Assembly: GCA_023301765.1 (NCBI GenBank)
Contig: JALZUC010000028.1
Coordinates: forward strand, 1 to 64,000
Source: Akkermansiaceae bacterium
Lineage (GTDB): Bacteria; Verrucomicrobiota; Verrucomicrobiia; Verrucomicrobiales; Akkermansiaceae
Reading direction: 5' to 3'
Length of the DNA: 64,000 nt
Made by a program: the position numbers and the translations under genes. Below the pieces are notes generated by a model. The model was given only the letters and a program-made list of their open reading frames with translations. It searched no databases and was not told the DNA's origin. This document shows, piece after piece, positions 1,828 through 58,027 of this stretch. Each line of letters begins with the position of its first letter. Positions within the stretch are counted from its first letter, which is position 1.

Positions 1828-2976
1828 TTAGCAACAGGTATCACCCTCACAGCATGAGGAACTGTCTGTGGTTTTGTTATAGTCTTGGCCTTTAGTCTCA
1901 CGTGGATGGCGTAGACGTGCACCTTCACAGCTACCAAATGGCTGAGCCTGTGCTGCTGGCACTTCTTCCAGAGGCTCTATAAAGTCAAAGAAGCCAGCGT
2001 AGGGGGCTTTCTTATATATATCATAGGTCTTAGCACATACGGCATAGCGCTTTCCACGCTCCATGGCATGATTATCATCATCAAGAACTTTTTTAAATGG
2101 TCCACGGTAGACTACGGCTTGATTACGCTCCATACAGGGGCCTTCTTTACCCTTCCAGGCTCTGACTGTAACGGAACGAAATTCGATACCTTCTACTGTC
2201 TGCCAAGGTTCTGTCTCAAACTTTACATACTCAACACCATAAAACCCTGCGTCTTCAAAGGCTTTGAGAAATGCTTCTTCACTCATGGCACCTGAGATAC
2301 AACCGCTCCAGAGGTGATCGTCATTTTGTAGGTGTTCTGGGACTTCTTCATCTGACACAATATCTGAGATAACAGCTCTACCCCCATCTTTTAATACTCG
2401 GTAAATTTCTTGGAACATCTGCTCTTTAAGCTGAGGTTCTACGAGGTTTAGAACGCAGTTTGATACAACGACGTCTACACTATCATCTGCGATCATTTTT
2501 TGCTCACGGCGGAGCTTTTCAGCTACATTTTCCATCTCTAACCAGCCGTTAGCATCTTCTACAGGCTTTGACGCTAGCTCTTTTTCTAGTAGGTTCAGGT
2601 CTAAGGCTAGATCTTGGATACGGCCTTTACGAAATTCTACATTTGAGTGGCCAATGTTCTTAGCCACAATTGGCGTATTTCTTTCAGCTACTTCTAGCAT
2701 GGCATCTGTCATGTCTACACCGATCACTTTACCTTCAGGTCCTACTACCTGACTGGCGATAAAGCATATTTTCCCTGTGCCACTGCCAAGATCCAGCACT
2801 GTGTCACCAGGCTCTACCCATTCTGAGGGGTCACCACAGCCATAGTCTTTTTCTATAACTTCAGCTGGGATTTGCTTGAGGTATTTAGGGTTATAGTCAA
2901 CAGGGCAGCAGAGTGCTTGTTCTTGCTGCTCAGCTGCAGCGGCGTAACGGTCTTTAACGGCAAATTCAGTTTTCAT
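1828..2976 (-). CDS. arsM: Arsenite methyltransferase (ArsM-type SAM-dependent)
   Basis: The 382-residue protein has a class I methyltransferase core with the SAM loop VLDLGSGTGK near residue 61 and GVDMTDAM after it. Family cysteines are present in CCPVDY near the N-terminus, SNCVLNLV and SGCISGAM, the positions that bind trivalent arsenic in ArsM, and the tail ends SSSCCEGDTCC. ArsM methylates As(III) to methylated, partly volatile species in the cytoplasm. It starts only 24 bases after the putative anti-sigma gene, so it is probably the last cistron of an ECF sigma operon rather than of an arsR-type ars operon; no arsR, arsB or arsC gene is nearby. Function is well supported by motifs; regulation is inferred from spacing. 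Confidence 0.88.
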   Translation of the reverse strand: MKTEFAVKDRYAAAAEQQEQALCCPVDYNPKYLKQIPAEVIEKDYGCGDPSEWVEPGDTVLDLGSGTGKICFIASQVVGPEGKVIGVDMTDAMLEVAERNTPIVAKNIGHSNVEFRKGRIQDLALDLNLLEKELASKPVEDANGWLEMENVAEKLRREQKMIADDSVDVVVSNCVLNLVEPQLKEQMFQEIYRVLKDGGRAVISDIVSDEEVPEHLQNDDHLWSGCISGAMSEEAFLKAFEDAGFYGVEYVKFETEPWQTVEGIEFRSVTVRAWKGKEGPCMERNQAVVYRGPFKKVLDDDNHAMERGKRYAVCAKTYDIYKKAPYAGFFDFIEPLEEVPAAQAQPFGSCEGARLRHPRETKGQDYNKTTDSSSCCEGDTCC

Positions 2977-3000
2977 AGATGGTCAGGTGTTTACAGTGAT

Positions 3001-3939
3001 CTAAAAATATTGCAATAGATCTTCCTTTTGCTCTCGCTGAGCTTTGGACATGAGGATGTAGGTATTCTCACTGTCACGCCAGCGCACTACATTCCACTCT
3101 GTCCGAGGGCAATGATAGCAGTTAGATACAGTCACTTTATTTCTGACTGGGATATCAGAGTCACTTATTAAGTCATTACGCATTATTATGAGGTGCATCG
3201 GGACTTCGTCCTTTGTTAAAAGGCAGATTAGAGATGCTTCTCTATTACCGGCGAGTAATAGCTTTTTACAGCCAAGGCTGGGTAGAGCCTGTAGTCCTTC
3301 TGGCAGGTCTGCTATGGTTACAGGGGCGGGGTAATTGTTTCCTGCTAACCATGATGTAAGGTGACTACTGCTCTCATGCTTAACGTCTAGCGTAAATTCT
3401 GCATTAAGTATCCTTCCGGCATCTAGCTGAACTTCAAGTGAAGCAACCTGATCTTTACTGCCTATATCTAGCTGCATGGCAAAGAATACTCCTAGTATCA
3501 AGGTGGCGGCTATGGCGGCGATGTTAAGCCACTTTTTCTTCCTAAGTGGAAGCGGCACTACATTAATTACGCTGCCCTGCTTACGATTATTTTTTTCCAT
3601 TTCCATGGCGGCAATAACTTGATCACGCAGGTTAGCAGGCGGCTGTAGTGCCGAGAGTGCACCACTGAACATACTATCCATTTCTTCATGGAGGCCTGGA
3701 CCATCTGGGGATTCACCATGCATGATAGTTAGTAAATTCATTCTAAGGTCTTCAGGAATTTCAAGTCCCGTAAGAGCTTCTGAAAATCCAGCATCTGCAG
3801 CGCGCTCATCAACAAGCCATTTTCCCAGCTCACGGTCTTCGACTGCTAGCTGTAGAGCTAGCTTAAAGTCTACGTCTGTGGCGTCTGCACCATTTGGGCG
3901 GAAGCTTTGAAGTATAAATTTAGCTTGGGTCTTATCCAT
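3001..3939 (-). CDS. Membrane-anchored putative anti-sigma factor
   Basis: This 312-residue protein overlaps the end of the upstream ECF sigma gene by 8 bases, the usual layout of a sigma/anti-sigma pair. The first 135 residues are hydrophilic and acidic. A single membrane helix follows (about residues 137-157, AAIAATLILGVFFAMQL) behind a basic stretch, and a 150-residue extracytoplasmic domain ends the protein. That outer domain contains a CYHC (CxxC) motif and two more Cys (LGCKK, ICLL), which could sense redox state or a thiol-reactive metalloid. No zinc-binding HxxxCxxC of the classical ZAS family is seen. The anti-sigma role is inferred from context and topology. Confidence 0.6.
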   Translation of the reverse strand: MDKTQAKFILQSFRPNGADATDVDFKLALQLAVEDRELGKWLVDERAADAGFSEALTGLEIPEDLRMNLLTIMHGESPDGPGLHEEMDSMFSGALSALQPPANLRDQVIAAMEMEKNNRKQGSVINVVPLPLRKKKWLNIAAIAATLILGVFFAMQLDIGSKDQVASLEVQLDAGRILNAEFTLDVKHESSSHLTSWLAGNNYPAPVTIADLPEGLQALPSLGCKKLLLAGNREASLICLLTKDEVPMHLIIMRNDLISDSDIPVRNKVTVSNCYHCPRTEWNVVRWRDSENTYILMSKAQREQKEDLLQYF

Positions 3940-5402: not shown

Positions 5403-6593
5403 TTACTGGCTCATTGCCTGTAGCACATAGCTAGAGGGGCGGAAGTTCTCAATAATGAGTTCCTGCTGACTTCCACGGTTCATACGCACTTCACTGATAT
5501 TGAAATTAGGCGTTTTATGTGGAGCGAAGAGAATGTCATCATGTGTGCTATTTTCGTGTTTTTTAAACATATCCGGCACTATATCACCACCAAGGTGATC
5601 ATCACGGCCTGTCGCCAAGTGGCAGGTTCCTAGAATTTTTTCATCCTGAATGTCAGAGCCTGATACTGGTAATACCTGGGTGCCAAAGCCCAGCTCTCCG
5701 AGTGTGCCCGTCATGGGGTCATCTTTAAGTCGCTGATTATGCTCCTCAATAGTAGCTGGATTTCCTTCAATAAGAGTGGAGCTGATGATATTCCTATCTA
5801 CTACTTCCAATACACCTAGAGTGCCATCTTCATATTTCATAGGGAACTGACCACGTGCATCTTCTGGCACAAAGTAAACTTCCCCCGCAGGCAGGTTAGC
5901 CACGTCTGGTGTTTTACCTCTGCATAGTCCATGACTTTTCTGAGCATCCTGACCACCAAGACCAAGCCAAGCGGTAAGCACGCGCCCATCTTCAAGAGTG
6001 AAGTCAACTTCAATAGAGTCCGCATTAGTAAGTGCCAAGCGCATACATTCTGCATCAGCAGAAACTTCATCATAGTTCACCGCCAGACCTGAGTTAAGAA
6101 TTATATCATTAACTCCGTGTAGCGTAGCTCCCCGGAAGCCAAACTGCTTACATTTCTCCGTGAGAGGCGCCGTAGCACTCCAATCTGTGATACATAAAAT
6201 GATATCATAGTTAGGGTAAATATCACGATCTAGTGATAACTCATTACCTTCCACATCCCAACATGGGTCTTTTATGTCTAGGTTAGAGCCGTTAGTGCAT
6301 TTATAGGCATACATCTCTCCTCCTGTCATGCCTAGCTCCTCCATGACACCATTTCTAAGGTTTTCGTAAAAGTGCTTATGAGCATTTTTCTGCACAGGGA
6401 AACCCTCTACTTCAAGGTAAGCATGACCTTTCATCATAGATTTAGGATCATCAAAATCTGTGAGAATACATACTTTACAATCTTGAGTGGGTTTAAACAC
6501 ATTATCTAACAAGCAACTTAAACTAAAGTCATTAAACTGACGCTTAGAGGGATCAGCTATTATTTCATCCGTCATGTATTTGGGTAACGACAT
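5403..6593 (-). CDS. M29-like aminopeptidase family protein (aminopeptidase T-like)
   Basis: The 396-residue protein has features of the thermophilic M29 aminopeptidase family in the C-terminal half: LPAGEVYFVPED, GELGFGTQ and GTCHLATGRDDHLGG with a later H-D-D segment. In M29 enzymes these glutamates, histidines and aspartates bind two metal ions. No signal peptide is seen, so it is probably cytosolic. It is the first gene of a minus-strand series with the protease 28 bases downstream. The sequence is divergent, so peptidase activity should be treated as probable rather than shown. Confidence 0.65.
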   Translation of the reverse strand: MSLPKYMTDEIIADPSKRQFNDFSLSCLLDNVFKPTQDCKVCILTDFDDPKSMMKGHAYLEVEGFPVQKNAHKHFYENLRNGVMEELGMTGGEMYAYKCTNGSNLDIKDPCWDVEGNELSLDRDIYPNYDIILCITDWSATAPLTEKCKQFGFRGATLHGVNDIILNSGLAVNYDEVSADAECMRLALTNADSIEVDFTLEDGRVLTAWLGLGGQDAQKSHGLCRGKTPDVANLPAGEVYFVPEDARGQFPMKYEDGTLGVLEVVDRNIISSTLIEGNPATIEEHNQRLKDDPMTGTLGELGFGTQVLPVSGSDIQDEKILGTCHLATGRDDHLGGDIVPDMFKKHENSTHDDILFAPHKTPNFNISEVRMNRGSQQELIIENFRPSSYVLQAMSQ

Positions 6594-6654
6594 GCAGATA
6601 GATTAGACTCAATCCAGATGACTGCAAGCGGAAGTTAGAATACTTCTAATCATT

Positions 6655-6815
6655 CTTTTAGAATGGCTGATTCAGGCCTAACATCCGTACGCACTACGGG
6701 GGGCGGATCTCTCCTCCCCCCGCATATGCACTCTCGTTAGAGAGAAACAACAACGCACGTCCCCGAGGGAACACATAGGTAGACGTGCAGGACCAAGAAA
6801 AGGTCACAAAAAAGT
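6655..6815. other. Intergenic region rich in inverted repeats
   Basis: Between the M29-like gene and the channel gene there are four consecutive inverted repeats: CATTCT/AGAATG, CGGGGGG/CCCCCCG with a 12-base loop, CTCT/AGAG with loop CGTT, and GCACGTC/GACGTGC enclosing about 20 bases. No open frame or U-tract terminator explains them. It could be a structured RNA, a leader or a combination of terminators; no known RNA family was recognised. Confidence 0.35.
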
Positions 6816-6851
6816 TTCTTACCCTTATTTAAATGGGCCTTATCGTAGGTG

Positions 6852-7709
6852 TTACTCAGCAGAGCGTCCACGTACAGGTTCATTAATAAGCTTTTCGTTA
6901 GGCACTATTACAAAGCCCCCATCAGCACGGGTAAGCTTAGTGGTGACAGGCCCCACGCCTGAGACCTTCATGCTCTCACCCTCAAATTCAATTTCTGTTC
7001 CGACTTGGTAAATATCACGTGAGTAAATACCTGAAACGATACTTAGGGCAACTCCCTTCAAACCTAATCCTAGGCAAAGCGCTAGCGCTAGGCCTAAGGC
7101 GGCAAGGATAATTTTTACCGTAGCATTAAGTAACTCCGTCTGGATATTAAGCTTCGCAAGGGCGACAGTCAGAACAAGAATAAAGATAAAGCCAAAGATA
7201 ACCTTTGAGAGTGTTTGCGCGTAACTGAGCCCTGCAACATTAAGCCCATTGAAAACTGCATTTTTCACCATATCAGCGACAAAAAAGCCAACCACCATGA
7301 TAAGAGTCGCCGTAATCGCATTTGGCATGAAGGAAATGATACTCATTACAATATCTGAGATATCTGAGATAGAGGCCTCTCGGGCCGCCACCTTAATGGC
7401 AAAGAGCATAGCCCCCCAGAACAGGAGTTTACCTATAAATGCGCCAGGCGCATCTTTGATACCTACCCCCTGAAGTCTTCCGGTAATTCCAGTTTTGTCC
7501 AGAAACCCATCAACACCCAGACGAGCAAACAATGTGCTTACGGCTTTAGCTAGCAATTTAGCAAAGACAAAACCAAGAAACAGCAGTACAAGAGCAAGTA
7601 AAAGCTGAGGGATAAACTCCGCGAAGTTTTCAATCATTTTGATTAAAGCCTCGCGAATTTTACTAAAAAAGGAACCTAGGGAGATGGAAGTATCAGCAAT
7701 TAGATGCAT
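6852..7709 (-). CDS. Small-conductance mechanosensitive channel family protein
   Basis: The 285-residue protein has about five hydrophobic helices, including conserved TM-helix repeats (FIPQLLLALVLLFLGFVFAKLL and MPNAITATLIMVVGFFVADMV), and a Gly/Ala-rich pore-like helix (LGLALALCLGLGLKGVA). A short beta domain follows (VGTEIEFEGESMKVSGVGPVTT, ending FVIVPNEKLINEPV), which is the MscS beta domain. It is truncated after this, lacking the MscS C-terminal cage. Channels of this type release solutes under osmotic downshock. It is the third gene of an ECF sigma operon, suggesting envelope or osmotic-stress control. Confidence 0.85.
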   Translation of the reverse strand: MHLIADTSISLGSFFSKIREALIKMIENFAEFIPQLLLALVLLFLGFVFAKLLAKAVSTLFARLGVDGFLDKTGITGRLQGVGIKDAPGAFIGKLLFWGAMLFAIKVAAREASISDISDIVMSIISFMPNAITATLIMVVGFFVADMVKNAVFNGLNVAGLSYAQTLSKVIFGFIFILVLTVALAKLNIQTELLNATVKIILAALGLALALCLGLGLKGVALSIVSGIYSRDIYQVGTEIEFEGESMKVSGVGPVTTKLTRADGGFVIVPNEKLINEPVRGRSAE

Positions 7710-7735: not shown

Positions 7736-7984
7736 TCAGGCCTTGTAGTGGTCATTCGGATGATTAATCTTACCCCCCGCAGCAGATAAAAGTCCATCAA
7801 CAACTGCAGGAAATCCTTGAAACATAAAAGAACTAAGCTCGCCCATGAACTTCTCATGCATAGCTCTCTCCATCACCATCTCTACCCTCCTATCATTGGG
7901 CACAGGAAGATCCTGCAGACCTGCCTCCTCAAAAAGACGGCTAATCTGTAGTTCATTTAATTCGATGCTTTCTGTTGGGTTCAT
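7736..7984 (-). CDS. Small protein coupled to the ECF sigma gene, unknown function
   Basis: The 82-residue product overlaps the upstream sigma gene by 4 bases (ATGA), so translation is coupled. It has no membrane segment or signal peptide; the N-terminus is acidic (ESIELNELQISRLFEEAG) and a hydrophobic patch follows (FMFQGFPAVVDGLLSAAGG). Its place between a sigma factor and a membrane channel makes a soluble anti-sigma or regulatory role plausible, but no known domain was recognised. Confidence 0.65.
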   Translation of the reverse strand: MNPTESIELNELQISRLFEEAGLQDLPVPNDRRVEMVMERAMHEKFMGELSSFMFQGFPAVVDGLLSAAGGKINHPNDHYKA

Positions 7985-8631
7985 GATGGAGTTTGGGAGC
8001 CCGTTATAACGGGTAGAGGTTCATTTGCAGTACGTTCGTATGCCTCTTTAAATGACTCAAGAGCGCGGTAGTAGCGCATCTTGGCTGCAGAGACTCCTAT
8101 ATCGGTGACATCAGATATCTCCTGCAGTGTCATTCCAGATACATACTTGTAGACAATTATTTCTCTTTCCTTGGGTTTTAGTTGATTAAGGGCTTCGTGA
8201 ATGTGGGCTTTTTTATCAGCGGCGCGATCGTCTTCAAAGTTACTTTTAGGTAGCTCTTCTTTAGCATGATCTTCGTAAGCTTCTTGAACTTCGCGCTTTC
8301 TTATAATCTTACTGATGCGGTTTCGGCAGTAATTGTGCACAATTTTATACAACCAAGTTTTAAAAGCTGACCTCCCCTCGAACTGGTGGAGCTTATGGAA
8401 CACTTGTAAAAGCGAGTCTTGAGCCACTTCTTCGGCATCTTCAGGGGAGCCTAAAAATTTCATACAAAGATTGTAAACCAACCCCTCATGACGCCTTACC
8501 AGCACTCTGTAAGCACTCAGTTCGTGAGGCAACTGTTCTTTACACAACTCTACTAGCTCTTCGTCTGAGAGCTTATCAAGATCCCCCTCATTTTTATCGG
8601 AGGAAGAAGTATTACGTATATTTAACGTCAC
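7981..8631 (-). CDS. RpoE-type ECF sigma factor
   Basis: The 216-residue protein shows sigma region 2 (LVYNLCMKFLGSPEDAEEVAQDSLLQVFHKLHQFEGRS split over the -10 binding helices, FKTWLYKIVHNYCRNR) and region 4 (LKPKEREIIVYKYVSGMTLQEISDVTDIGVSAAKMRYYRALESFK). The start at 8631 is GTG with no strong Shine-Dalgarno site; no ATG precedes region 2, so GTG is preferred. It heads the operon with the small protein and the channel, and is divergent from the DUF1549 gene. Confidence 0.9.
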   Translation of the reverse strand: MTLNIRNTSSSDKNEGDLDKLSDEELVELCKEQLPHELSAYRVLVRRHEGLVYNLCMKFLGSPEDAEEVAQDSLLQVFHKLHQFEGRSAFKTWLYKIVHNYCRNRISKIIRKREVQEAYEDHAKEELPKSNFEDDRAADKKAHIHEALNQLKPKEREIIVYKYVSGMTLQEISDVTDIGVSAAKMRYYRALESFKEAYERTANEPLPVITGSQTPS

Positions 8632-8750
8632 TTTCTGGCTGCCTATTAAAGCATTTGCCTAGCTGGGAGCAATAAATTTATAACAATGAAAAAATTAAAA
8701 AGCTCTCAACGTATAGGATTACTCTACAAATAGAATAAAAATTTATATTT

Positions 8751-8809: not shown

Positions 8810-10831
8810 ATGAAACCTATCGTCACGTCTTTACACACTATCATATTTCTAGGAGTCAACTTATACGTATTTACCACAGTGTCAGCTAAACCGCTCACTC
8901 CGGACAAAGTCCGTATTTCCAGCCGTGGCATAGATCAATTAGTAGCCTCGTATTTAAAAGAAAAAAAGGTGGCTGCTAACCCCATCATCGATGATGCCAC
9001 CTTCCTCAGGCGTTCTTACATTTCGATTAACGGCCGTATCCCAACCTCCGCTGAGGCTAGAAAATTCCTTACTGATCCGGCCAAAGGTAAACGTGAAACC
9101 TTAGTAGATACTCTGATAGAATCACGCGGCTATAAGAGCCAGATGTTTAATTTTTGGGCTGATCTTTTAAGACTTAATACCAATCAGGAAAAATTTGGTC
9201 TTGGCTGGCATAACTGGATCCTTAAATCCGTAGAAAACAACAAGCCTTATAACAAGTTTGTAAACGAAATGCTCTCTGCTGAAGGCCTACCTTCTAAGAA
9301 TCCCGCGGTAGGCTACTATCTCCGAGACCGTAACATGCTACTCGATAATGTAAGTAATAGCGCACAGATCTTTCTTGGAACGCAGATTGGCTGCGCTCAA
9401 TGTCACGATCACCCGTTTGATGACCTTACCCAAAAGCAGTATTACGAATTTGCAGCTTTCATAGGAGATACCAGCTATAAAAGCGCCGCCGCCGAACATA
9501 TGCTCAACCGTATGACTGAGCACTCCATGGGGAAAACTGGTGCAAAGCCCCGCTCTCTTGCCAAAAGCTTTAGTAAAAAAGAGGCCAAAAAACTAAAAAG
9601 CGACTACGCCTCCACATTCCGCTATTTTAAAAGAAACTCCACCAGCACTGACTCTGGAAAAACACTACGCCTTCCTAAAGACTACAAGTATAATGATGGG
9701 AAGCCAGGTGACCTAGTCACCCCCCAGACTATCTTTGGCGAGCCGATCAAGCTCACCTCCACGCAAGACAAGCAGCAGGCATTTGCAGACTGGATCACCA
9801 GCTCGAAAAACCCGCGGTTTACCAAGGTGATCGTTAATAGACTATGGGCCAAGGTATTTGGCAGAGGCATCGTGCGATCACTAGATGATTGGTCAGAAAC
9901 CACTAGAATTTCACACCCAGAGCTACTCGACTACCTCTGTGAAATAATGAAATCCTCCAACTATAATGTGGAGCAATTCCTACGCGTCCTTTACCATACT
10001 CGTTTATTCCAGACTGCCGTCACCGTAGATGAAGCCAAATCCAGCGGTAGCTATGACTTTCACGGCCCATTACTACGCCGTATGTCCGCTGAGCAGATCT
10101 ACGACTCCCTCACTGTCCTACAGGAGGGCAATGTCGATGACCTACAAAATCACGACATCAAAGATAAATGGGAAAACTACGTCAAAAACGTAGAAACATT
10201 CTTTAAGATGTCCGTCCCAGAGCTCATCAAGCTAGATAAGACCGTAGATAACCGTGAAAAAGAAATCTATGCCCAACGATCCACTGTGAGAAAACTCAAA
10301 CTCGAGATTGCCAAAGCTGAAGGCACTGGGGATACCAAAAAGCTTAAAACCCTCAAAAAAAACCTCAGCAGCCAATACGCGAAAAACAAACAATTTATCT
10401 ATAAAAATGGGGATGATACCATAACCATGCTCACCGTCCAGCAACTGAAAGCCAAAGGCAGTAAAGCGGCCCTGCGATCCTCGCAAAAACCTGCCCCTGC
10501 TAAGCCGGGCACCTTCATCCGCCAGTTTGGCAGCTCAGACCGTGCTATCACCAATGCTTCACACACACAGGCATCTATCCCTCAAGCTCTATCACTCCTC
10601 AACGGTAAAACCATAGATGCCCTAACCTATAAGAAAACCGCACTCGCCAGAGGCTTAGTTCAAAATAAAAGTTCATCTACTAGACTAGAGCACCTCTACC
10701 TCTCTATCTATAGCCAGATGCCCAGTGAGGCAGAACGCCAGCGCTATGAACCCATGATGCAAAGCTCAAAGACAATAAAAACCCTCATCAAAGCCATGCT
10801 GAACTCCAAGCGATTTCTCTTCGTTCAATAA
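8810..10831 (+). CDS. DUF1549/DUF1553 secreted protein (planctomycete-cytochrome-associated type)
   Basis: The 673-residue protein has a signal peptide (to about AKP, residue 28), a DUF1549 domain with RRSYISINGRIPT and the conserved CAQCHDHPFDDL motif near residue 196, and a DUF1553 domain with NPRFTKVIVNRLWAKVFGRGIV and LRVLYHTRLFQT. Unlike many relatives it has no N-terminal cytochrome (PSCyt1) domain. A charged coiled-coil-like insert lies at about 480-530. These proteins are always found beside DUF1501 genes in Planctomycetes and Verrucomicrobia; the CxxCH could bind heme. The biochemical role is not known. It is followed 32 bases later by the DUF1501 gene. Confidence 0.88.
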   Translation: MKPIVTSLHTIIFLGVNLYVFTTVSAKPLTPDKVRISSRGIDQLVASYLKEKKVAANPIIDDATFLRRSYISINGRIPTSAEARKFLTDPAKGKRETLVDTLIESRGYKSQMFNFWADLLRLNTNQEKFGLGWHNWILKSVENNKPYNKFVNEMLSAEGLPSKNPAVGYYLRDRNMLLDNVSNSAQIFLGTQIGCAQCHDHPFDDLTQKQYYEFAAFIGDTSYKSAAAEHMLNRMTEHSMGKTGAKPRSLAKSFSKKEAKKLKSDYASTFRYFKRNSTSTDSGKTLRLPKDYKYNDGKPGDLVTPQTIFGEPIKLTSTQDKQQAFADWITSSKNPRFTKVIVNRLWAKVFGRGIVRSLDDWSETTRISHPELLDYLCEIMKSSNYNVEQFLRVLYHTRLFQTAVTVDEAKSSGSYDFHGPLLRRMSAEQIYDSLTVLQEGNVDDLQNHDIKDKWENYVKNVETFFKMSVPELIKLDKTVDNREKEIYAQRSTVRKLKLEIAKAEGTGDTKKLKTLKKNLSSQYAKNKQFIYKNGDDTITMLTVQQLKAKGSKAALRSSQKPAPAKPGTFIRQFGSSDRAITNASHTQASIPQALSLLNGKTIDALTYKKTALARGLVQNKSSSTRLEHLYLSIYSQMPSEAERQRYEPMMQSSKTIKTLIKAMLNSKRFLFVQ

Positions 10832-51626: not shown

Positions 51627-53924
51627 ATGAAACGCTCTTCCCATACCCGTATTTTATTAGTCAGCTGCATTTCAGCCATAGGCCTACTCTCACCAGCTCT
51701 CTCACAGCAAGGAGATAGAAAAGGCCACAATATGACCGCCCCCATTGCTGCTACTAAGATTCCACCATCCCCCTACCTCTCACTAGATGATGCCCTGGAA
51801 AAGTTTCAAATTGCACCCGGATATGTCATCGAGCCAGTAGCCTCTGGTAAAGATGTCTACATGAGCGTCGCCCTATCGTTTGATGGTAATGGCCGCGCAT
51901 GGTCTTGTGAAATGCGTAGTTACATGCCTGATCTTGATGGTAATGGTGAAGGCACTCCCAATGGTAGAATCAGAGTATTAGAAGATACGAATGGCGATGG
52001 TAAAACTGACCGTGTTACCACCTTCTTAGAAGGCCTGGTCCTCCCACGCGCCGTGGCCGTCACCAGTGATGGCTGCCTCTACACCAGTGGCCAAACCCTC
52101 TATTTCACAAAAAGAGACGGACTCAAGCCCGTTGGCAAACCTACTATAGTAGACGCTAAATACTCCACTGGTGGAAACCCAGAACATAGCGCTAACGCTC
52201 TCCTCTATGGTCATGATAACTGGTACTATAATGCCAAGAGCACGGCACGCTACCGCCGCATAAATGGTAAATGGATTAAGGATACCACACGTCTGCGCGG
52301 CCAATGGGGCCTAAGTAAAGACAACGCCGGCCGCCTCTACTACAATACTAACAGTGTCACCCTCAAAGGTGACATCTTCCCACCTATGTTTATGCGCGGT
52401 AATACTCACTATAAACCTAAGGTCAAAGTCTCACCCTCCATCGGGTCTAGAGACACTAGCCCCATACACATCACACCGGGTGTAAACCGTGCTTATTTAA
52501 AGGGCACGCTCGATAATCAAGGCCGCTTGAACAAAGTCACGGCCGCGTGTGGTGTCACCATCTACCGCGGAGATAACTTCCCAGAGGAGCAGCAAGGCAT
52601 GGCATTTATCTGTGAGCCTGCTGGAGATCTTATTAAAGCCGTAAAAATCAGCCGTGATCAGTATAATAACCCCACTGGGAGCCACCCATACGGTAGCAGT
52701 AAAGAGTTTCTAGCCAGTTCAGACGAATGGTTTCTACCCTGTAACCTATACACAGCGCCAGATGGCTCTCTATGGCTAGTGGACATGTACTTTGGACTAC
52801 TCCAGCACAAAGCATACATGACCAGCTACCTGCGTCACCAATACACCAGCAGGAAGTTAGACCGACCCGAGCCAAACACTGGCCGAATCTACCGCATTCG
52901 CTATCAAAAAAATAAACTCTCCCCAGTACCCCAGCTGGAAGGGCTATCTACAGCAGAAACAGTCAACTTTCTCAGCCACCCAAATGGCACTATCCGCGAC
53001 ATCGCCCAGCGCCGCATCGTAGAATCTCAAGACTCCTCCGTAACGGACGCGCTGACGCAATTGATAGATACATCGCCAAATTCACTAGCAAAAATTCACG
53101 CCCTCTGGACCCTAGAGGGTCTTGGTGAAATCCCCACAGCAGCACTTGTCAAAGGCCTTAAAAGCTCAGACCCAGATGTAATTAATAATACCCTAGATAT
53201 CATTGCTCGTAGCCGGATGAATCACTCAGATATTAAACAAGCCATCACCTCCCTGGCAAATAAACCACAGACTCTACATGCGCGCATCAAAGCCTCATCC
53301 GCAGCTGGTATGTTAGATCAGGCTCTGGAGCTCACACTTCAATCTAAAAAAACACCCTTTGTATCTGAGGTATTTATCAGCAGCCTTGGCTCAGAAACAG
53401 TAGCCGTCAGAGAAAAATACAAAACAATAAACCACCCTAAACTAGACTCATTACTTACTACTGCCGCAAAAGCCGCCAAGAATAGCAAATTAGTAAAAAC
53501 CAAACCTGGAGCACACCTTAATACAGAAGACCTCACCTCCTTCAAACGCGGTAAAGCTATCTACACCACCAAAGCCGCCTGCTTTGGTTGCCACGGCACT
53601 GATGGCGCAGGTCTAGACAGCCTCGGCCCACCACTAGATAAATCTGAGTGGGTGACCAAAAACCCAGAACGCCTAACAAAGATTCTCCTCCAAGGAATGG
53701 TAGGGCCACTCAGCGTCAACGGGGTGAAATACTCACCAGCACTGGCGATGCCTGGCCTAAAGGATAACGCCTCTATCACTGATCAAGATCTAGCCGATGT
53801 TATCAACTACATTAGCAATGCATGGAGTAATCAGTCCAAGCTCATCACCCCAAACTTCGTTAAAAAAATCCGCTCTAATACAAAATCCCAACAAGCACCC
53901 TATCAAGCGAAAGCTTTAGAGTAA
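51627..53924 (+). CDS. PVC-type propeller dehydrogenase with C-terminal cytochrome c
   Basis: The 765-residue exported protein has a signal peptide, a beta-propeller domain (FDGNGRAWSCEMRSYMPDLD, RVLEDTNGDGKTDRVTTFLEGLVLPRAV) of the sorbosone/glucose-dehydrogenase-like type, a HEAT-like helical segment (about 430-590), and a class I cytochrome c domain with CFGCHG near residue 652. It may oxidise sugars outside the cytoplasmic membrane and pass electrons to the respiratory chain. As the last gene of the operon, 30 bases after DUF1080, it may supply electron acceptance for the sugar oxidation step. Confidence 0.85.
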   Translation: MKRSSHTRILLVSCISAIGLLSPALSQQGDRKGHNMTAPIAATKIPPSPYLSLDDALEKFQIAPGYVIEPVASGKDVYMSVALSFDGNGRAWSCEMRSYMPDLDGNGEGTPNGRIRVLEDTNGDGKTDRVTTFLEGLVLPRAVAVTSDGCLYTSGQTLYFTKRDGLKPVGKPTIVDAKYSTGGNPEHSANALLYGHDNWYYNAKSTARYRRINGKWIKDTTRLRGQWGLSKDNAGRLYYNTNSVTLKGDIFPPMFMRGNTHYKPKVKVSPSIGSRDTSPIHITPGVNRAYLKGTLDNQGRLNKVTAACGVTIYRGDNFPEEQQGMAFICEPAGDLIKAVKISRDQYNNPTGSHPYGSSKEFLASSDEWFLPCNLYTAPDGSLWLVDMYFGLLQHKAYMTSYLRHQYTSRKLDRPEPNTGRIYRIRYQKNKLSPVPQLEGLSTAETVNFLSHPNGTIRDIAQRRIVESQDSSVTDALTQLIDTSPNSLAKIHALWTLEGLGEIPTAALVKGLKSSDPDVINNTLDIIARSRMNHSDIKQAITSLANKPQTLHARIKASSAAGMLDQALELTLQSKKTPFVSEVFISSLGSETVAVREKYKTINHPKLDSLLTTAAKAAKNSKLVKTKPGAHLNTEDLTSFKRGKAIYTTKAACFGCHGTDGAGLDSLGPPLDKSEWVTKNPERLTKILLQGMVGPLSVNGVKYSPALAMPGLKDNASITDQDLADVINYISNAWSNQSKLITPNFVKKIRSNTKSQQAPYQAKALE

Positions 53925-54059: not shown

Positions 54060-55787
54060 CTAGTGTTTACTAATAATCAAACCACTAAGTGCAGACTGTA
54101 TAGCTTCACTGCCTTTTACTGGGCCAGTAATAACTCTGATCGTGTAAAAGCCTCCAGCAACTGGATTATTTATAATAACAGGCACCTGAATAGCTCCGGG
54201 CTCATCAGCTAGGATTTCGCTATCTGTCATAGATTCATCCTTTGAACTCATAACCTCTATACGGTAGTCCCCCGCATTTTGTATGAGATAGAGGTTTACC
54301 GTAACTGAGCTCGGATCCTTTCTTGGCATCCTTAACTGAATTTCATATCCAGCATCTTCAGATTGCTCGTTATTTCTAACAACCGATGCTCCAGGAAATA
54401 AAACTTTCTCATTCTTCGTAAATCGAATCGGGTTTTCAGTCATCTTAACCGGACTGACTTGCCCAAAGGTCTGTATACTTAAAATATACCCTCCCCCCCC
54501 AGTCACCAATTTAGAGGAAATAGGTATATCAACACCCACCATCCAGTCCACAGTATCACTGCTATCTAGAGTCACTGTTTTAGGATTATTTTGCTTCCTC
54601 AAAGAATGAATAAAAACTTCCTTACCAATACTCAGCGAATGTAGCCCTGACGTATCTTTTACTACAGAAGCACCATCGCTTTCACTAGAATCACCTCGTT
54701 TTGTTGCAAAGATTACGCCAAGAATTAAAAACATTACCAACCCTCCGATTATAGAAAACATCAACACCTTTTCCTTTTTGGCACTTTTAGCAACATCGTT
54801 CACAACCTGCGCGTGAGCTCCACTTAATGGATCTCCCGCTGCTGTATTAGCTGCGCTATTATTAACAGCAGAAGTAGCCATAGCCGCCCCCCCCTGTGCC
54901 ACAGCCATACCTGCTGCTGCCTCTGATATCCTAGCTGTTTGTTCGAGTTTTTTAGCCGCCGCATCAGCCAGCTCAAATGCATGAAGAGTTATCATAGCGG
55001 CTGAAACATCTTGAGGGCGCTTTTCTGGATCTACATCAATGAGCGACATAATCCATTTCACAAAATCAGGCTTAAGCTTGTCTACATACTGATCAACACT
55101 CGGTATCCCCTCGCCATGATAGGCAGCTAAACACTCTTCACTAGATTTACTTGAAAATGGATGACCTCCCACTAACGCAGTGTAGCAAAGCTGACCTAAC
55201 ATAAATAAATCTGCCCTAGCATCTGGCTCCACACCTTCCTGATGAAGTTCCGGAGCCAAAATGACAGGGTCAGCCACCTTAACTTTCTCTGCCTTAACCA
55301 TAGATGCCAGTTGGTTAAGCCCCAAGTCTACTAAAAGATATCTATGACCTCCAGACGCTCTATTTATTCGTTTAATAGAACCCGTGTGGAGTGCCCCATG
55401 GAAGACTCCAGACTCATGAGCTGCATGTAGCGCCTCTAACATATCAGCGGCCATTCTATAAACTCCAGCCTCACTCAAAGCTCCAGTTTGTAATCGCTCA
55501 GCTAGAGACTCCCCTTCGATAAGCTGGGAAAATACATATGCGCCACCGTCCGCTATATGTACATCATAGATCGTCATCATGTTAGGGTGCTGCATAGAAC
55601 CCATCTTCCCTGTGTATATCCCAAAATCCCTCCGCCATGAATCATCCCTTGTTTTTACCTCAGGATTATCACCATACTCAATATACCTACACATCACGCG
55701 GCGCTGTAGCATAGTGTCATCTGCCAAATAGACAGCGCCTAATATATCCTCTCCTAGCTGACTAGTTATTTGGTATCGTTCTGTCAT
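54060..55787 (-). CDS. Transmembrane pseudokinase (Ser/Thr kinase fold, catalytic residues missing)
   Basis: The 575-residue protein has a kinase-like domain (residues 4-275). The glycine loop is weakened (LGEDILGAVY), the VAIK Lys is R34, the helix-C Glu aligns with Y58, HRD reads H130-G-A132 and the later K and N read H134 and S137; only the DFG Asp remains (D154-L-G). One membrane helix (341-362) separates this from a C-terminal beta-rich exported part, about 210 residues, that resembles PPC/beta-sandwich domains. Two C8 runs lie in the gene (54493-54500 and 54887-54894). It is likely a signalling or scaffold pseudoenzyme. Confidence 0.85.
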   Translation of the reverse strand: MTERYQITSQLGEDILGAVYLADDTMLQRRVMCRYIEYGDNPEVKTRDDSWRRDFGIYTGKMGSMQHPNMMTIYDVHIADGGAYVFSQLIEGESLAERLQTGALSEAGVYRMAADMLEALHAAHESGVFHGALHTGSIKRINRASGGHRYLLVDLGLNQLASMVKAEKVKVADPVILAPELHQEGVEPDARADLFMLGQLCYTALVGGHPFSSKSSEECLAAYHGEGIPSVDQYVDKLKPDFVKWIMSLIDVDPEKRPQDVSAAMITLHAFELADAAAKKLEQTARISEAAAGMAVAQGGAAMATSAVNNSAANTAAGDPLSGAHAQVVNDVAKSAKKEKVLMFSIIGGLVMFLILGVIFATKRGDSSESDGASVVKDTSGLHSLSIGKEVFIHSLRKQNNPKTVTLDSSDTVDWMVGVDIPISSKLVTGGGGYILSIQTFGQVSPVKMTENPIRFTKNEKVLFPGASVVRNNEQSEDAGYEIQLRMPRKDPSSVTVNLYLIQNAGDYRIEVMSSKDESMTDSEILADEPGAIQVPVIINNPVAGGFYTIRVITGPVKGSEAIQSALSGLIISKH

Positions 55788-55977: not shown

Positions 55978-57507
55978 CTACTCAGCAGCCTTCGCCTTAA
56001 GATCAAATTTCTTATCACTAACACGCTCAATCTCTACAAAAAAAGCACCCAGCTCTCTAGTCAGAGCTAGTTGCCCTGTAAACCAACACTCCATATCAAT
56101 AATACCAGCGTCCGCATCCATCTGTAACGTTACCGAGGTGGCACCTTTCATCACCTTAAGCTGCGCCACATTCCCTCCTAAGCGGATGAAGGCCGTGCCT
56201 CCCGCCAGCTTCATTAGCTCTTTATACTGACCATTAGCAGTATCGCTAGGCAGAAGGCTTGCCGTGATTTTATATCTACCAGAACGAGTAATATTTACAG
56301 CCCAGCTACCTGAATAAGCAGGAAATTCATCCTTATATTTTGGGTTGTTTTTAAGCCCCCCAAGGATAGCTAAAAGGTCATCTTGATAGACCATAGCCAT
56401 CGAATTAGGTGATTCACCATTTACATCAATAATCTTGGAAGCACGCCAATCAAGAGCTGAAAGTCTTACCACACGCCCATCATGCTGCCCTACGTCAAAA
56501 GCACGCGTATCATGCAGCGCCTTACCTGCCAGCTGCCACCACTGGCCATGTGCAGTAAGTAGCTGTCTATGCATCTGCTGATGCTCTACCAGATCTAATG
56601 GCTGAACGAGATCGGCGGCAAAACCTTTTGCCCGATATAAATTTATACCATTCACTAAAGCTAAACCCTCACCAATAACTAAAGAACCACGGTGTCGGTT
56701 TCTCTCTGCGGACTCAGTCACTGGCCAGTTTCCATAATGAAAAAAACGAAAGGCTGATTTTGAACTCACCTTTAGCCCTACCATATCACATATCAATCTA
56801 TGTAGATCCCAATCAGTCTCGATACTAATGGTAGACTTTTTCACCCCTCTAGTAAAACACTGCCACCTAGCCGGATGGTAATATTTCTGAGCCAAATCCC
56901 CGCCCGATTCTAAAATCACCACAATAGCCGGATGCTGGTTTTTTTCCGCCCACTTAGATAAGGCATCCATAATAGAGGCTCTACTCAGCTCTCTACCTTC
57001 AGCGATATAAACAAAGCTAGATTGATCAAAACTCTCTATCTCTAACGGTGCCTCCCCACTCTTCTCCCAGCGATCAGTCAGAGTATTACGCAGCGCCGCA
57101 GTATGAGCATACGCCCTATCAAAGCCCCTGCTCTGCGGTTCAAACGGCTCATTTACCCCCAAAGCCCACGCACCATAAAAGCAAGCTTGATACCCTAGAT
57201 TCTTAAAAAGGTTTGCTAAAGTTTCACCCCTAACAGCCTTCCTACGCCAGTCCGCATCAGCTACTACCCCCTGCTCCAATGCTGGCGTGCCAAAAAGTAA
57301 TGCAGTCTGCACAGCCGCCCTGCCAGGACTAGCGAGACAGCTCCCACTTTGTTTAGCCCATCCCTCTGGCTTTATAAAATCAAGTTCAACTCCAGACTTA
57401 ACCTCTGTAGCATTCAGCTGGATCACAAATACATGAGGACGCTCCTGCTCCGCCTTTGCGAAACCAGAAATACACACCATCACTATCAATAGAAACCTTG
57501 CCAGCAT
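55978..57507 (-). CDS. Secreted pseudosulfatase (sulfatase fold without catalytic residues)
   Basis: About 509 residues from ATG at 57507, where a signal peptide begins; an upstream ATG at 57537 overlaps the phosphatase start. The sulfatase alignment is visible (SPGRAAVQTALLFG, ANLFKNLGYQACFYGAWALG, EPQSRGFDRAYAH). The Cys/Ser of the C-x-P-x-R motif is Ala59, GKWHLG reads GAWALG (A113, A115), and the metal-binding DDxGYGD block is absent. The C-terminal region (about 400-500) keeps the beta domain found in the intact sulfatase at 31518-33338. An aberrant alignment using C57 is possible but would need an insertion. Probably a non-catalytic binding protein. Confidence 0.8.
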   Translation of the reverse strand: MLARFLLIVMVCISGFAKAEQERPHVFVIQLNATEVKSGVELDFIKPEGWAKQSGSCLASPGRAAVQTALLFGTPALEQGVVADADWRRKAVRGETLANLFKNLGYQACFYGAWALGVNEPFEPQSRGFDRAYAHTAALRNTLTDRWEKSGEAPLEIESFDQSSFVYIAEGRELSRASIMDALSKWAEKNQHPAIVVILESGGDLAQKYYHPARWQCFTRGVKKSTISIETDWDLHRLICDMVGLKVSSKSAFRFFHYGNWPVTESAERNRHRGSLVIGEGLALVNGINLYRAKGFAADLVQPLDLVEHQQMHRQLLTAHGQWWQLAGKALHDTRAFDVGQHDGRVVRLSALDWRASKIIDVNGESPNSMAMVYQDDLLAILGGLKNNPKYKDEFPAYSGSWAVNITRSGRYKITASLLPSDTANGQYKELMKLAGGTAFIRLGGNVAQLKVMKGATSVTLQMDADAGIIDMECWFTGQLALTRELGAFFVEIERVSDKKFDLKAKAAE

Positions 57508-57535
57508 CACGCATAGAATACAACATTCCAACATC

Positions 57536-58027
57536 ATGCCAAGAACACCTTTTCATGTCTTATTCGTCTGTATGGGAAACATCTGTAGATCACCAGCTGG
57601 TGAAAACATCTTCCGCCACCAGGTAAAATCCGCCGGCCTGGAAAACGATATCATCATCGACTCCGCCGGCACTCACAACTACCATACTGGCAAAGGGCCT
57701 GATCACCGTATGTGCGCTACTCTCAAATCACGTAGTATACCAGCAGATGGTAAGGCTCGCCTATTCAACACTCAGGATTTTTATAACTTTGATCTTATAC
57801 TCACGATGGATACGGAGAACTATCAAAGAGTCACCGCACAAGAGCCAGATGATGACTATCGCGCTAAAGTTAGAATGTTTACCTCCTACTGCACACAGTC
57901 AGAAAATCAAATCCCAGATGTGCCAGACCCCTACTATGGTGGTGACGAAGGCTTCGAGCAGGTGGCCGATATATTAGTAGACGGTTGCGCAGAGATTATC
58001 CACCAGTACCAGCAAGGTACGCTCTAA
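57536..58027 (+). CDS. Low-molecular-weight protein tyrosine phosphatase
   Basis: The 163-residue protein shows the P-loop VCMGNICRSP (C12 to R18) and the Asp of DPYYGG (general acid region), plus the DSAGTHNYHTG block. The enzyme dephosphorylates tyrosine (and sometimes arginine) residues in the cytosol. Its start codon overlaps by 2 bases the alternative start of the divergent pseudosulfatase gene, so the promoters must lie inside each other's coding or upstream sequence. Confidence 0.93.
   Translation: MPRTPFHVLFVCMGNICRSPAGENIFRHQVKSAGLENDIIIDSAGTHNYHTGKGPDHRMCATLKSRSIPADGKARLFNTQDFYNFDLILTMDTENYQRVTAQEPDDDYRAKVRMFTSYCTQSENQIPDVPDPYYGGDEGFEQVADILVDGCAEIIHQYQQGTL

Follow-up and report, generated by a model that had tools for sequence, protein, structure and literature searches.

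Analysis of a 64,000-nucleotide stretch of DNA from an Akkermansiaceae bacterium (the window) revealed a membrane protein with a kinase fold in which catalytic residues have been replaced, and some of the replacing residues are nearly invariant across a pseudokinase clade of one origin. Judging from its conservation, the kinase-like domain probably no longer transfers phosphate. We hold with moderate confidence, on the basis of sequences and structural models, that the protein is a non-catalytic receptor-type pseudokinase in which a glycan sensor outside the cell would act through protein partners inside. The features of the locus are listed in Table 1.

Table 1. Features of the pseudokinase locus, with positions in the window.
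Feature	Coordinates	Strand	Basis
Putative pseudokinase receptor gene, 575 aa	54060..55787	-	ORF; Pkinase 58.9 bits; orthologues
Pseudokinase domain, predicted cytoplasmic, residues 1-272	54972..55787	-	Pfam 5-259; superposition on Stk1
Degraded glycine loop GEDILG, residues 12-17	55737..55754	-	Asp14 for second Gly
Arg34 at VAIK Lys site	55686..55688	-	Arg in 37 of 41 clade members; Lys in 31 of 31 active kinases
Tyr58 at helix-C Glu site	55614..55616	-	No Glu in any of 41 clade members; Glu in all 31 active kinases
His-Gly-Ala 130-132 at HRD	55392..55400	-	All 41 clade members lack the Asp and have the His
Ser137 at catalytic-loop Asn site	55377..55379	-	Ser in 40 of 41 clade members; Asn in 31 of 31 active kinases
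Asp-Leu-Gly 154-156 at DFG, Asp kept	55320..55328	-	Clade: Asp in 41 of 41; Gly156 in 38 of 38
Ala-rich linker, low confidence, residues 273-335	54783..54971	-	pLDDT below 50 at 275-340
Transmembrane helix, residues 336-362, after AKSAKKEK	54702..54782	-	Hydropathy; helix in model
Beta-sandwich domain, predicted exported, residues 384-575	54063..54638	-	pLDDT 85.6; CBM61 Z 10.4
Sulfatase-like protein, upstream neighbour	55978..57537	-	Pfam Sulfatase 26.8 bits, cut-off 25
PVC-type heme-binding CxxCH protein	51627..53924		Convergent with pseudokinase gene

Architecture of the protein

The open reading frame is intact, as had been predicted, running from ATG to stop, and the aligned orthologues agree with its start position and length. 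The Pfam Pkinase match lies above the curated cut-off of PF00069 (31.7 bits), which assigns the protein to the protein kinase fold, and at E-values up to 1 the whole protein matched just Pkinase and PK_Tyr_Ser-Thr. The model of the kinase domain superposed on Staphylococcus aureus Stk1 with a Z-score of 28.6 (257 residues, 2.5 A), and KSR1 and KSR2 were among its closest folds (Z 26.3-26.6; KSR2 26.6). A single hydrophobic helix (residues 341-359, mean hydropathy 2.8) lies between the kinase-like half and a C-terminal all-beta domain, in agreement with the membrane helix and beta-rich C-terminus of the original prediction. Because AKSAKKEK stands ahead of the helix, the positive-inside rule predicts a cytoplasmic kinase half and an exported beta domain.

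Replacement of the catalytic residues

The substitutions proposed earlier at the VAIK lysine, the helix-C glutamate, the HRD motif and the catalytic-loop asparagine were borne out when their codons were read in the DNA; the codon of the retained Asp154 occupies 55326-55328. The further statement that all but the DFG aspartate had been lost is overstated: the domain also keeps His130, Gly156, the APE motif (178-180), Asp193 and Arg257, as well as Gly17, the third glycine-loop glycine. With His130, Gly156, APE, Asp193 and Arg257 kept, the scaffold of the kinase fold is intact and the catalytic set is gone. The catalytic loop contains neither aspartic acid nor asparagine to serve as base or second metal contact. 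Loss of the VAIK lysine and the HRD aspartate with the DFG aspartate kept is the sequence pattern of a pseudokinase, and the window protein has it.

Orthologues whose aligned identity is 27-48% share these losses, which are thus due neither to chance nor to sequencing error. In the orthologue alignment that had been suggested as a check (12 rows), the losses are conserved, and Arg34, His130, Gly131, Ser137, Asp154 and Gly156 are invariant. Catalytically complete orthologues with unconstrained altered sites, which would have spoken against the proposal, were absent among the orthologues read, where the altered sites are strictly constrained.

Single origin of the pseudokinase clade

A search of 58 related genomes revealed full-length relatives within the genus, with identities of 35-50%. 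A profile of the ectodomain matched nine of the 14 genus genomes, the other five being without the gene; three matches occurred in genome G012 and two in G010, one of the latter being an active kinase. The search was extended to 145 genomes of the family with loci sorted by motif, and among the loci read there the motif-found pseudokinases were confined to three genera (g1, g10 and g14). A careful tree was computed from 72 kinase domains (41 pseudokinases and 31 active kinases) with the catalytic columns excluded; L037 (active kinase), L088 (pseudokinase, His34) and L089 (pseudokinase, Arg34) stood outside it. All 41 pseudokinases fell on one side of a branch (support 99/98; 200 of 200 bootstrap trees), and shuffled labels needed 23.6 changes on average. 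In a quick tree, 38 pseudokinases also fell in one clade (SH-aLRT 97). The pseudokinase clade has one origin.

All 31 active kinases carry the full set of lysine, glutamic acid, histidine, aspartic acid, asparagine and aspartic acid, and neither the helix-C glutamate nor the catalytic aspartate is present in any clade member. The exceptions to the replaced residues are Phe34 (L124 and L127), Lys34 (L125), Leu34 (L126) and His137 (L124), all in the later-added rows L123-L127. Further clade-specific positions in the 38-row set are Phe55, Asp173, Met196, Gly208 and His209. Counted from DxG to APE, the activation segment spans 27-31 residues in 38 pseudokinases and 32 residues in 27 of 32 active kinases. 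At position 14 the genus members have aspartic acid (10 of 11) or glycine (1 of 11).

The constancy of four positions (R 37, H 41, S 40 and D 41 of 41) could also point to a repurposed active site, that is, a pocket that keeps nucleotide binding or has gained new chemistry through Arg34, His130, Ser137 and Asp154, as in SelO or SidJ. Glycine is retained at position 14 in 27 of 38 clade members (first set), and passages of a 2025 review describe modelled ATP in DYD pseudokinases that likewise have arginine for lysine and no helix-C glutamate (O'Boyle et al. 2025, PMC12599244). However, the catalytic loop of the window protein offers no acidic or amide residue as base or for a second metal, the Asp14 of its own lineage should disfavour ATP, and the SelO model has no match in the window protein (Pfam, E up to 1). 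We consider a repurposed site quite improbable and rank it below the receptor model.

Beyond the three genera, the best loci from 193 phylum and 113 order genomes (57 of 57) keep the lysine, the glutamate, the catalytic aspartate, the asparagine and the DFG aspartate; this survey covered the best-scoring loci alone, so weaker relatives may be missed. A scan of the contigs of the named genomes gave one relative, an active cyanobacterial kinase. Among the phylum-search loci (within L155-L175), 17 of the 57 have HGD in place of HRD with the aspartate kept. By sequence, these kinases appear to be one arginine-to-glycine step along and short of the pseudokinase state.

Selection on the two halves

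Kinase-domain dN/dS (NG86) was computable for two pairs, L010-L011 (0.116) and L054-L055 (0.041); synonymous sites were saturated between the window and L008, and the value for L014-L015 was not computable. With dN/dS of 0.04-0.12, the dead kinase domain evolves under purifying selection. Over the final 180 aligned residues dN/dS was 0.31 for L010-L011, 0.21 for L014-L015 and 0.14 for L054-L055, and identity between the window protein and L008 falls from 69% in the kinase domain to 32% over that same stretch. The contrast in both measures shows the dead domain to evolve slowly and the outside domain fast. At the level of sequence, faster divergence of the ectodomain is a receptor-like pattern.

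A kinase decaying towards loss might be suspected from the several catalytic residues that are gone and from the genus genomes without the gene (5 of 14). The one clade origin, intact reading frames, fixed substitutions and low dN/dS run counter to decay, which was rejected on this conservation and selection evidence as extremely improbable. The structural or sensing role across the membrane that had been proposed for the protein gains support from the constraint on the altered sites and from purifying selection on the kinase-like domain.

Fold of the exported domain

Neither Pfam nor a sequence search of the PDB gave a match for the C-terminal domain. Modelled alone from a 14-row alignment, it gave an all-beta fold with a pTM of 0.86 (pLDDT in Table 1). 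Among known folds it comes closest to CBM61 with galactotriose (137 residues, 2.7 A), at a Z-score of 10.4 that is modest yet above 8, below which a match can reflect a common arrangement. The next folds (Z 8.5-10.3) are MAM domains (meprin and receptor phosphatase mu) and CBM22, CBM4, CBM16 and the alginate-binding and porphyran-binding modules, the carbohydrate-binding modules falling at Z 8.6-9.3; Eph receptor ligand-binding domains were also among the Foldseek matches. The models suggest that the exported domain may bind a glycan, perhaps a sulfated one. Because protein-binding MAM and Eph domains have a CBM-like fold too, the fold is not proof of a glycan ligand; nor does similarity of fold establish function. 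Marine Akkermansiaceae live on sulfated algal polysaccharides, according to passages in PMC8857213 and PMC13174399.

Distant stand-alone homologues of the ectodomain occur at L112 in genome G022 (6278-7081, 7888-8673 and 8814-9596). By eye, two of these have lipoprotein-like signal sequences and one has an N-terminal membrane anchor.

Exchange of ectodomains and a tandem kinase pair

Within the clade the pseudokinase domain is variously joined to a window-type beta domain, to LamG (recognised in L058 and L084), to an A3-type domain, to others, or to nothing. Certain members lack an ectodomain or a membrane helix, and the conserved function of the pseudokinase domain therefore cannot depend on a receptor in every case.

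At locus L044 of G010 the pseudokinase gene (2123-3907) is followed downstream by a kinase gene (291-2081) with VAIK, HRD and DFG intact. The helix and ectodomain of the two proteins are 61% identical (245 columns) and their kinase parts 27%. The active kinase domain is 65% identical to that of a paralogue at G010:C64, which has no match to the ectodomain profile. The simplest account of these sequences is that the active kinase acquired the sensor of the neighbouring pseudokinase. Such a pair with a shared ectodomain was found in one genome only, and in the genome of the window itself no further protein matches the window ectodomain profile. A search of 22 genomes with the A3 ectodomain gave eight matches, seven in pseudokinases identified earlier in the analysis, the eighth in an open reading frame cut by the contig end (384 aa); none of the 22 genomes showed it on an active kinase. 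The ectodomain fold, the swapping of ectodomains in the clade and the active kinase that shares an ectodomain lend indirect support to the sensing part of the original prediction.

Neighbouring genes

The protein upstream of the pseudokinase gene has alanine at the formylglycine cysteine, NA for DD and GAWA for GKWH, so that by its catalytic residues it is not a sulfatase despite its Pfam score. The neighbour at L038 (8767-10332), which lies below the Pfam cut-off (16.1 vs 25) and was counted solely as a homologue of the window's, has like losses; between the two, DD is NA/NE, the cysteine is Ala/Val and GKWH is GAWA. Given these losses, two adjoining pseudoenzymes have been kept together in two genomes. 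Sulfatase or sulfatase-like genes adjoin the pseudokinase gene at seven of ten genus loci versus about 0.3 expected from genome-wide counts; the statistics assume independent loci and 900-1000 genes per Mb, which makes their P values rough. L044 was counted for one flank only, and the two neighbouring copies at L042 as one locus. Five of these loci have the gene immediately upstream and in the same orientation. The loci are related, and the adjacency therefore amounts to perhaps four independent cases. At the sister-genus loci laid out direct adjacency was not seen, the sulfatase at L078 being a few genes off. PVC heme-binding genes (DUF7133/cytochrome c) adjoin the pseudokinase gene at the window, L038, L039, L012 and others. 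The adjoining PVC-type gene matches TIGR02604 (135.7 bits; cut-off 122.2), which supports a Planctomycetes-Verrucomicrobia-Chlamydiae lineage.

These neighbourhoods would suit a purely structural anchor, namely a platform for a surface polysaccharide-degrading complex with sulfatases and PVC cytochromes and without signalling, and EssB/YukC provides a precedent of a membrane pseudokinase scaffold (in passages of PMC12599244). Such a platform is the chief rival of the receptor model and nonetheless unlikely: the adjacency comes down to a few independent cases and is missing at the sister-genus loci laid out, sulfatases should be extracytoplasmic whereas the kinase fold is inside, and the swapping of ectodomains fits sensing better.

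Comparison with known pseudokinases

According to passages of the 2025 review (PMC12599244), bacterial pseudokinases have received little attention, and a mechanism has been proposed for few of them; arginine replaces the lysine in ActPs2 and DYD, and there are families with membrane helices and shortened activation loops. The same passages allow comparison of three families with the window protein. DYD pseudokinases share with it a membrane kinase fold, the lysine-to-arginine change and the missing helix-C glutamate. They have a DYD motif at DFG, a catalytic-loop asparagine is named for them, and they occur in actinobacteria and firmicutes, whereas the window protein has DLG, serine for the asparagine, HGA and a PVC lineage. 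In ActPs2 the HRD aspartate has become asparagine, DFG is mostly deleted and there are long insertions; in the window protein this aspartate is Ala132, DxG is kept and the activation segment is shortened. EssB/YukC is likewise a transmembrane pseudokinase with a degraded glycine loop and shortened activation loop, but is a T7SSb component with TRG at the DFG position, and its family model had no match in the window protein (Pfam, E up to 1). None of the families considered from this review, which also include ActPs1, ActPs3 with GLW, CP1 and DLHK, has the combination of features of the window clade. The stems Verrucomicrob- and Planctomycet- are absent from its main text, and titles and abstract openings in the open-access literature yielded no description of the clade.

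The PASTA kinases PknB and Stk1 are the nearest solved folds to the window kinase domain. They consist of an N-terminal kinase with intact catalytic residues, one membrane helix and a sensor outside. PASTA repeats are absent from the window protein (Pfam), which scored 95.8 bits against 450 for the Stk1/PknB model NF033483. The label of PASTA kinase was rejected, the NCBIfam scores being generic to kinase domains and all below cut-off. The label of anti-phage kinase was also rejected on NCBIfam scores below cut-off; for the many kinase models listed by PADLOC there is no cut-off.

In HER3 and KSR a dead kinase fold pairs with active kinases, as described in passages of PMC13259870, and KSR1 has the same lysine-to-arginine change in a review passage. 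Both are eukaryotic, and the likeness would lie in the way of working, not in membership.

Proposed mechanism

In the receptor model, a ligand, presumably a glycan on the evidence of the fold, would bind the beta domain outside the cell, and this binding would alter dimerisation or conformation inside. The pseudokinase could then recruit or allosterically control an active Ser/Thr kinase or another partner, by analogy with HER3 and KSR in animals. The remodelled pocket (Arg34, Ser137 and Asp154) may lock the fold in one conformation and so present a docking or allosteric surface.

As a tentative and somewhat doubtful extension, clade members may be lineage-specific dead-kinase receptors with swappable lectin-like ectodomains that heterodimerise with active transmembrane Ser/Thr kinases which recognise the same glycan. 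The G010 tandem pair would then be a fixed example of a pseudokinase/active-kinase heterodimer sharing a glycan sensor. The clade constitutes a clean natural set, with one origin, a fixed replacement active site and exchangeable outside domains, and it includes one genome in which an active kinase is tied to the same sensor. If the receptor model holds, eukaryotes would not be alone in signalling through dead-kinase receptors, and such signalling may connect sensing with the utilisation of sulfated algal polysaccharides.

Other kinase-like proteins of the same genome

Two further proteins were observed in the window's own genome. L001 (1-2178, contig C68) is an active Ser/Thr kinase whose outside part appears C-type-lectin-like by eye, and is a possible partner. 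L005 (1162-3540, contig C1) is a second candidate pseudokinase, with FAVR at VAIK and HGN for HRD when read by eye.
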